DNA of 41,451 nucleotides from an uncultured Acidobacteriota bacterium (GTDB lineage Bacteria > Acidobacteriota > Terriglobia > Terriglobales > Acidobacteriaceae). This document shows, piece by piece, positions 30,457-32,817 of the stretch; the first letter of the stretch is position 1, and every line of letters starts with the position of its first letter. The notes under the pieces were generated by a model that was not told where the DNA came from, did no database searches, and saw only the letters and a program-made list of their open reading frames with translations. The position numbers were made by a program, and so were the translations under genes. The stretch is from contig CAINND010000054.1 of the NCBI GenBank assembly GCA_903851035.1, positions 1 to 41,451 on the forward strand, in the 5' to 3' direction.

Positions 30457-31633
30457 TTAAAATGCGTCAATCCCCGTGACGGCGGCGCCGATGATGAGCG
30501 TGTGCACGTCGTGGGTTCCTTCGTACGTCTTGACCGACTCCAGATTCGCCATGTGGCGGAAGACCGGGTACTCGTCGGCGATGCCGTTGGCGCCAAGAAT
30601 GTCGCGCGCCATGCGCGCGCACTCCAGGGCCATCCATACATTGTTACGCTTTGCCATGGAGATGTGGAAGTGCTGCACGCGGCCTTCGTCCTTGAGGCGG
30701 CCCACCTGCAGGGCCAGCAACTGCGCCTTGGTGATCTCGGTGATCATCCAGGCCAGCTTCTGTTGCACAAGCTGATGGCTGGCAATGGGCTGGTCGCGGA
30801 ACTGCTTGCGGAAGAGTGAGTATTGCAAAGCGCAGTCGTAGCAGGCCATGGCCGCGCCGATGACGCCCCAGGCAATGCCATAGCGCGCCTGGTTCAGGCA
30901 CATCAGCGCGCTCTTCAGGCCCTCTGTGCCGGGCAGCAGATTTTCCTTCGGAATCTTTACATCCTGCAGCGAGAGGGAACTGGTGACGCTGGCGCAAGGA
31001 CCATTTTCCGTGGACATCCTCGGCGCGGAAGCCGGGACGGTCGGTTTCCACCAGGAAGCCGCGCACCTTGCCGCCATGCTCTTCGCTCCTGGCCCACACC
31101 ACGGCCACGTCGGCGATGGAGCCGGAGGTGATCCACATCTTTTCGCCGTTCAGCACATAGCCATCTGGCGTAGAGGCGGCGCGGGTGCGCATCGCCCCGG
31201 GGTTCGAACCGGCATCGGGCTCGGTGAGGCCAAAGCAGCCAAGCTTTTCGCCCTTGGCCATGGCCGGCAGCCAGCGATCCTTCTGCGCGTCGCTGCCAAA
31301 GGCATAAATGGGATACATCACCAGGCCGCTCTGCACGCTGGCAAAGCTGCGCAGGCCGCTATCGCCGCGCTCCAGCTCCTGCATGATGAGGCCGTACTCC
31401 ACGTTGTTCATGCCCGCGCAGCCGTAGCCCTCAATGGTGGGGCCGAAGAAGCCAAGCTCGCCCATGGGAGCCACGATCTGCCGCGGGAAGCGGCCCTCGC
31501 GGTTGCACTCCTCGATAATGGGGATAAGGTTGTCTTCCACGAACTGGCGGGCGGTGGAGCGCACCATGCGCTCGTCTTCTGTCAGCAGAGAGTCGAATTC
31601 CAGGAAGTCAACGCCGCGATACTTTAAGGCCAT
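30457..31633 (-). pseudogene. Glutaryl-CoA dehydrogenase-like gene, frameshifted
   Basis: Two overlapping frames together give a complete acyl-CoA dehydrogenase of about 392 residues. The first runs from the start at 31633 through GFRAEDVHGKWSLR. The second resumes at ASVTSSLSLQDV and ends in TGIDAF at 30457. Two bases (GC) appear missing near 30991-30996 in TTGCGC-CAGC. The catalytic Glu is present in KTYEGTHDVHTLIIG, the glutaryl-CoA dehydrogenase signature, with KWSLRASVT also typical. The rest of both frames is well conserved, so the break is recent or a sequencing error. If real, the product stops after about 210 native residues plus a garbled tail. The family oxidises and decarboxylates glutaryl-CoA in lysine/tryptophan breakdown. 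Confidence 0.85.
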
Positions 31634-32365: not shown

Positions 32366-32557
32366 TACAATCATAGAGCTACCCTTGCGGGAGGGCCGCC
32401 GCCAACGCGGTGTGGGCCGCTCGGAGGGTTCCGGTGCAAGCGTAAGCTTCCTGGGTGGAAACGGGCAGAAGCCCGCGCCAATGTGCGCGGTGTTCCCATG
32501 CCCCGCCAGAGCAATTTCGCCGAGCTTCGCGCCGGCCCCGAACAAGGAGTTTTTCCC
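32366..32557 (+). promoter_or_regulatory. Structured leader before the zinc-ribbon gene
   Basis: TACAAT (32366-32371) is a plausible -10 with a weak -35. It is followed by about 180 bases packed with stem-loops: GAGC (32376) with GCTC (32419) enclosing CCCT/AGGG and CCGC/GCGG hairpins; AAGC-GTAA-GCTT with a GNRA loop (32438-32449); GGGC-AGAA-GCCC (32463-32474); and CGCGC-CAATGT-GCGCG (32474-32489). AAGGAG follows at 32544. The density of small hairpins suggests a cis-acting RNA or a small RNA. I could not match a known riboswitch class. The frame of the downstream gene stays open through it, but GC bias explains that. Confidence 0.4.
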
Positions 32558-32737
32558 ATGGCAAAGATCGCAAAGACAGCCGATCGCAAAAAAGTAATGG
32601 ACACCAGCAAGAGCACGGATTGCCCCAAGTGCGGCAAGCCGACCCGCATCGTCAAGCGCGTAAAGGATCGTGAGCGCAACGTGCCGGGCGGCGTGTATAT
32701 CTCCTGCTCCGCCTGCGAGTTCTACGAGAAGCTGTAA
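32558..32737 (+). CDS. Small zinc-ribbon protein
   Basis: A 59-residue protein. Two cysteine pairs, CPKCGK near residue 20 and CSAC near residue 52, can form a single zinc ribbon. The N-terminus is lysine-rich (MAKIAKTADRKKVMD), and basic residues follow the first pair (RIVKRVKDRERN). The start is set by AAGGAG eight bases before the ATG; longer in-frame starts would read through the structured leader. The size and the basic, zinc-binding character resemble ribosome- or RNA-associated proteins, but I do not recognise a named family. It ends before a strong terminator. Confidence 0.8.
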   Translation: MAKIAKTADRKKVMDTSKSTDCPKCGKPTRIVKRVKDRERNVPGGVYISCSACEFYEKL

Positions 32738-32760
32738 GTAAAGTTTAAGCTCGAAGCAAG

Positions 32761-32790
32761 AATGCGCCCCGTGAATGGGGCGCATTTCCT
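32761..32790. terminator. Terminator after the zinc-ribbon gene
   Basis: AATGCGCCCC and GGGGCGCATT form a perfect 10-bp stem over GTGAAT, followed by TCCTTTT on the plus strand. It lies between this gene and the converging NDH-2 gene. Confidence 0.85.
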
Positions 32791-32817
32791 TTTGCCGTGA
32801 GCTTGCACAAATCCACG

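Follow-up and report, generated by a model that had tools for sequence, protein, structure and literature searches.

A candidate structured RNA in the 5' leader of a small zinc-ribbon gene of Acidobacteriota

Architecture of the locus

The stretch of DNA analysed here, referred to as the window, comprises 41,451 nucleotides of contig C54, which is part of a 3.26-Mb genome of an uncultured, soil-type Acidobacteriota bacterium in 121 contigs. It carries, on the forward strand, a gene for a zinc-ribbon protein of 59 residues with two CxxC pairs (CPKC and CSAC). The neighbouring genes were named by recognition from the sequence rather than by a family search: upstream, on the opposite strand, lies what is presumably a DinB-like gene, and downstream, convergent to the zinc-ribbon gene, a gene which we take to be NADH-dehydrogenase-like. 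At 30457-31633 on the minus strand, two overlapping frames appear by eye to be the front and back halves of one acyl-CoA-dehydrogenase-like protein, so that this gene looks frameshifted near 30990-31080, either truly or by assembly error. The features of the zinc-ribbon locus are as follows:

32366..32371, forward strand: TACAAT, likely -10 box, called by eye and by position in relatives
32376..32513, forward strand: conserved RNA core (covariance model R1, 137.5 bits, the score of a training sequence, as R1 was built from the window's sequence and four others)
32378..32380, forward strand: 5' strand of helix P1, GCU, pairing with AGC at 32510-32512; invariant in five species
32381..32384, forward strand: 5' strand of helix P2, ACCC, closing a variable insert; full pairing with GGGU in four of five species
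32385..32425, forward strand: variable insert within P2; 28-55% pairwise identity at ungapped positions
32426..32429, forward strand: 3' strand of P2, GGGU, from the five-sequence alignment
32431..32454, forward strand: helix P3, CCGG..CCUGG, with inner hairpin AAGC-GUAA-GCUU; pairs invariant, inner loop different in L011
32463..32503, forward strand: helix P4, GGGCA/UGCCC, around GAAGCC, the P5 hairpin (32473-32490) and GUG; three two-sided pair changes in P5
32510..32512, forward strand: 3' strand of P1, AGC; invariant in five species
32544..32549, forward strand: ribosome-binding site AAGGAG, from the sequence
32558..32737, forward strand: 59-aa zinc-ribbon gene, present in 366 of the 398 family genomes searched
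32762..32794, forward strand: terminator-like hairpin with U-rich tail, 3' of the zinc-ribbon gene (fold z -4.48; by eye)

The -10 box was called by eye and by its position in relatives because a consensus promoter scan returned no sigma-70-type promoter above threshold; in four other species, boxes at the matching position (TATAAT, TACAAT, TACAAT and TAGAAT) directly precede the start of the conserved RNA. An earlier note on this DNA had placed a leader between a plausible promoter and a ribosome-binding site, which agrees with the ~183 nt from TACAAT to AAGGAG. Transcription would start at the first bases of GAGCTACCC, a few bases after the -10-like box. In the window, the RNA core ends ~30 nt 5' of the Shine-Dalgarno sequence, and a consensus scan found no terminator between the core and the gene; by a simple rule, none was found in four of the five leaders compared below, and weak matches occur in L002. 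The consensus scan did not call the hairpin behind the gene either. Because the downstream neighbour is convergent and this strong hairpin with its U-rich tail follows the gene, the transcript is probably a one-gene mRNA running from about 32375 to 32794, that is ~420 nt, of which ~183 nt are leader.

The zinc-ribbon protein

The gene is nearly universal in its bacterial family, being present in 249 of the 256 genomes of good quality; the named relatives in the genome collection belong to the Acidobacteriota (Terriglobia, Acidobacteriaceae and the like) and are mostly metagenome assemblies, as are the named members of the window's group. In 26 aligned orthologues, hand-picked from 47 loci, M1, A5, K6, R10, P23, the four cysteines, K27, R30, V32, K33, R34, G45 and S49 are invariant. 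The protein falls short of every Pfam and NCBIfam cut-off, with Elf1-like and other zinc ribbons as the nearest families, and thus does not count among the recognised ribosomal proteins. Structure prediction gives a zinc ribbon of modest confidence (mean pLDDT 68.5), for which fold comparison gave a weak, non-significant resemblance to Rpb9-type zinc ribbons (best E 0.45) and sequence comparison a PDB match to 1qyp (E 0.0064). Both resemblances were considered too generic to assign a function from the fold. The charge of the protein and its fold type lead us to infer a role in nucleic-acid binding. A literature search, judged by its result lists, found nothing on the leader RNA or on the protein.

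A conserved RNA core with one covarying hairpin

Aligned over the window and four other species, the core consists of blocks kept in all five (GCTACCC, GGTTCCGG, GCTTCCTGG.TGG, GGGCAGAAGCCC and GGTG(T)TCCCATG.CC.GCCAGAGCA), with inserts of varying length between them; 71 of the 116 ungapped columns are invariant. The blocks are 80-97% identical between species, whereas at fourfold sites the adjacent gene differs by 33-67% among the same five, a contrast in sequence divergence that shows the RNA core to be under strong purifying selection. The elements that are kept comprise the ACCC/GGGU helix, CCGG..CCUGG with its small hairpin, the GGGCA/UGYCC helix and the hairpin after GAAGCC. The insert within P2 differs in length and sequence among the five species but is predicted in every one of them to fold as a self-closed unit.

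The secondary structure was drawn by hand from the same five sequences that were used to score it, and 98.3% of the cells pair. These sequences are uniform in P1, in P3 and over most of P2 and P4, and the one pair of P4 that varies does so on one side only; as most pairs are invariant and the sequences are only five, covariation does not prove P1 to P4. P5 is shown by the alignment to be a covarying hairpin: three of its pairs change on both sides, compared with 0 in each of six slid controls and an average of 1.1 in shuffles, where 12 of 500 attain 3. For the covariation score, 0.125 compares with 0.065 in shuffles, of which one in 500 attains the observed value, but further pair types are no more numerous than in shuffles (4 versus 3.6; 327 of 500 reach 4). 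The folding energy of the leader is not better than that of shuffles (z -0.36; -0.47 for the other strand) and favours neither strand; among the five leaders, only that of L011 is clearly more stable than shuffles, the other four being ordinary.

Searched against Rfam 15, the leaders gave no match at gathering score, and laxer settings (E up to 10 or 5) gave only chance matches to microRNAs and lncRNAs. As far as sequence comparison reaches, the leader is a conserved folded RNA, a candidate structured RNA without an Rfam match. The central proposal of the earlier note, a structured RNA in front of the zinc-ribbon gene, is thereby upheld, both by the comparison of orthologous leaders through a covariance model and covariation and by the Rfam search, which the note had recommended as checks. 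Its detailed structure fared less evenly. The small hairpin AAGC-GUAA-GCUU is present at 32438-32449; three relatives carry it as AAGC-GAAA-GCUU, and in the fifth species the loop differs. Hairpins within 32385-32425 sit in the unconserved insert, and the proposed enclosing GAGC/GCTC helix is not confirmed, as GCTC is missing from the four other leaders.

Distribution of the RNA

A DNA search of 61 relatives matched 47, mostly across the zinc-ribbon gene, and the leader core was matched only in four genomes of the genus and in one genome (G024) of another genus; the RNA was not found in the loci of 42 other relatives. Among 398 family genomes, R1 gives one strong match per genome in five, the same five from which it was built, and a strict pattern search finds the same five; all five strong matches lie directly upstream of the zinc-ribbon gene. 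In 80 public loci with the gene, the RNA was found only in the copies of G001, G002 and G024, with one further match of 9 bits (E 4.6). No second copy above noise was found in the window's own genome, and in 299 genomes of the class and 227 of the phylum, draws that overlap the family draw, the only strong match was the window itself. The large searches used strict filters and scored few candidates per genome, so that weak relatives can be missed.

Several weaker matches were taken as chance. Those in L063 and L064 (22 bits) contain only fragments of the conserved blocks. At L289:1501-1591, minus strand, a match of 33 bits (E 1.2e-4 for that genome, one of 299 searched) falls within what is presumably a purD frame in a genome of another family; this stretch shares CCTGG, CAGAAGC, ATGTCCTG and AGAGCA in order, and its score is uncomfortably high for chance. 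The R1 matches in L291, opposite an AMP-ligase-like gene, and in L290, which has nearly the same sequence, were dismissed likewise. In the class and phylum draws, G741 has an R1 match of 27 bits.

Leaders of the same gene in other relatives

For a wider view, 159 different upstream regions were taken as a sample from the 366 genomes with the gene, some of them from beyond the family; regions of fewer than 150 nt, or with the same final 150 nt as another region, were dropped, and six loci without usable start or length (L155, L171, L186, L191, L215 and L222) were left out. A recognisable TGTAAAAT-like -10 box is present in 106 regions and not in the other 53, which include L002, L003 and L004, whose boxes do not fit the pattern. 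With boxes 40-235 nt upstream counted, the median leader in the 106 regions is 136.5 nt; with the nearest box within 350 nt, it is 135 nt, 90 of the 106 leaders fall at 100-220 nt and seven are below 60 nt. A leader of some 180 nt, which the earlier note had thought unusual, is therefore common for this gene. Near the 5' end, GCGAGT is found in 38 of the 106 leaders, compared with 1.0 in shuffles.

By eye, several leader types precede the zinc-ribbon gene. Types of their own with a repeated motif were seen in (i) L010, L093, L097 and L130 (CCCTGCACAGNNCAGG), (ii) L007, L112, L117, L134 and L144 (CATCCCATCYACAA) and (iii) L034, L110 and L116 (GGCGAGTA..TACTCCC). In L034, the neighbourhood of the zinc-ribbon gene also holds an Acido-Lenti-1 RNA (RF01687, 42.8 bits), at 616-661 on the minus strand. 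Taken together, the upstream sequences suggest that the leader is exchanged or remodelled between lineages of the family, with hardly any change in the protein.

A second type, which occurs in two clades of other genera, is better defined. It reads GUY-GAA-GC-C-hairpin-GYGNGC-NGA-GAC and comprises 28 variants (for example L079:2441-2479), of which 27 were aligned, L168 being omitted for its very long hairpin. In this alignment, 97.0% of the cells pair, and 32 two-sided changes compare with 12.3 in shuffles and at most nine in slid controls; the number of pairs with a two-sided change (4) is not above shuffles (3.1). Eight of the 28 leaders were scanned against Rfam and gave no match. A model of this type, R2, was run on 200 family genomes and matched 32 of them (E up to 0.1); the best 23 matches all lie before the zinc-ribbon gene, as does one of the seven weaker matches with a locus, three weak ones without a locus having been left out. 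A structured leader dedicated to the zinc-ribbon gene is thus firmly supported, at the sequence level, in the relatives, and this makes it more likely that the window's leader is one too.

Whether the two types are related is evenly balanced: the window's RNA and these GUYGAAGCC leaders may about equally well form one family or not. The order GAAGCC, hairpin, GUG, a motif chosen after looking at the data, is kept by a strict rule in four of the five leaders of the window's group, L002 missing one pair; it is found in 26 of the 159 upstream regions (the four of the window's group included) versus 0.28 per shuffled set, and in none of 115 control stretches further upstream. GCUACC stands near the leader start in nine of the 106 leaders, two from the window's group and seven from one GUYGAAGCC clade, versus 0.7 in shuffles. 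R2, which was built without the window's group, found no match at GAAGCC in the five loci with filters off; its best match there lies elsewhere in the locus (12.6 bits, E 0.18).

Possible function of the leader

The RNA is best explained as a structured 5' leader that acts in cis and would control translation of the zinc-ribbon gene alone, the regulator most likely being the gene's own protein; as a whole, we give this reading slightly less than an even chance, its structural part being supported and its regulator part inferred. In five species the RNA accompanies the zinc-ribbon gene, beginning a few bases after a -10-like box. Control of translation is favoured because the end of the RNA lies 5' of the ribosome-binding site and the search for a terminator gave none. 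In excess, the small basic zinc-ribbon protein would bind the leader of its own gene, in the manner of ribosomal proteins; it is preferred as the regulator since the leader is tied to this single gene and since leaders change around an unchanging protein. The leader stands before the gene of the presumed regulator, whose identity is assumed, in all five strong R1 matches and all 23 best R2 matches. In none of the five leaders is the Shine-Dalgarno sequence significantly more hidden than in shuffles (p 0.40, 0.27, 0.32, 0.62 and 0.08), and no switching pairing was found. Base-pairing between the 5' end and the Shine-Dalgarno spacer was rejected (p 0.045 in L003, 0.069-0.93 in the others; own partners not best). 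As to mimicry of rRNA, the best shared word is 9 nt, in a comparison with a 6-kb stretch containing the 23S rRNA of one relative, where 16S was not found.

A riboswitch is an unlikely alternative, in which the compact P1-P2-P3-P4 junction would be an aptamer for a small molecule or an ion, zinc being natural for a zinc ribbon, and would likewise control translation. Aptamers typically combine a compact junction and long invariant stretches with variable hairpin tips, and the leader offers such a junction and such tips together with GCTACCC, GGTTCCGG, GGGCAGAAGCCC, TCCCATG and GCCAGAGCA, all in a 5' position before the ribosome-binding site; the core is conserved and one helix covaries, in a set of five sequences. 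Yet there is one strong match per genome, always before the zinc-ribbon gene, and no regulon is seen, which holds for the GUYGAAGCC type as well; the window's RNA is limited to five of 398 family genomes, whereas known riboswitch classes usually spread more widely, and no switching pairing was found. Neither a terminator in the region nor, at the 0.05 level, a hidden Shine-Dalgarno sequence in any of the five leaders came to light, though an expression platform may escape such a search. The absence of an evident switch would suit a structured leader without regulation, which might stabilize or protect the mRNA of a strongly expressed small gene or provide a standby site for ribosomes. Leaders that differ between clades, by types assigned by eye, while commonly measuring 100-220 nt, would fit this equally improbable reading, but the exact conservation of stretches drawn as unpaired exceeds what a stability hairpin needs.

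The remaining two readings have very little probability. The ATG in CCCATG is invariant in the five species and could open an upstream ORF or leader peptide; however, its frame relative to the gene varies (0, 1, 1, 2, 1), running on into the gene without a stop only in the window, the ORFs span 22-80 codons, no Shine-Dalgarno sequence precedes the ATG, and conservation of the bases as far as AGAGCA shows no codon pattern. A separate small RNA that just happens to precede the gene, as the earlier note had also considered, would account for a start of its own right after the -10-like box; it is made highly improbable by the failure to find a terminator before the gene, in the window and by the simple rule in four of five leaders, and by the fact that the RNA accompanies the same gene in all five species.

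Autoregulation through the structured leader may be extended to the family as a whole, although this seems rather doubtful: a single fast-remodelling leader (5' GCUACC or GCGAGU, then GAAGCC-hairpin-GUG), with the window's RNA as a strongly diverged branch, might be recognised by the nearly invariant product of the gene, which would then be a new self-regulating RNA-binding zinc ribbon. A candidate structured RNA without an Rfam match is added by the window, and a second, better supported one by related genera; both are attached to a protein that stays below Pfam and NCBIfam cut-offs yet is nearly universal in its bacterial family. If the protein does control its own leader, the system would be a compact model of an RNA site that is rebuilt repeatedly while its protein partner hardly changes.

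Comparison with known systems

Two candidate structured RNAs, Acido-1 from Acidobacteria and Acido-Lenti-1 from both Acidobacteria and Lentisphaerae, have been described, and Table 1 of that source marks both with 'n' for cis-regulatory (PMC2864571). The window's RNA resembles them in being a candidate structured RNA in Acidobacteria; neither of the two has a match in the window, and Acido-Lenti-1 was seen only elsewhere, in L034.

In T-box leaders, a UGGNACC bulge binds the end of the tRNA. The window's leader shares with them only a short GGGTGG stretch; TGGNACC occurs in none of the five leaders, all 13 matches to it in the window lie outside the leader, and no Rfam T-box model matches, so that the T-box hint of the earlier note is not supported. 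With riboswitches, the leader has in common a compact multi-helix junction with invariant core and variable tips before the ribosome-binding site; it differs from them in having no Rfam match, one gene and five species. Ribosomal-protein leaders are autoregulatory 5' UTRs, many of which, though not all, resemble the rRNA site of the protein. In contrast to the proteins of those systems, the zinc-ribbon protein reaches no Pfam or NCBIfam cut-off, and its binding to the leader and any rRNA mimicry are putative here. The window's arrangement is like theirs in that a structured 5' leader precedes the gene of a small, basic, highly conserved protein, and in that the leader varies whereas the protein does not.
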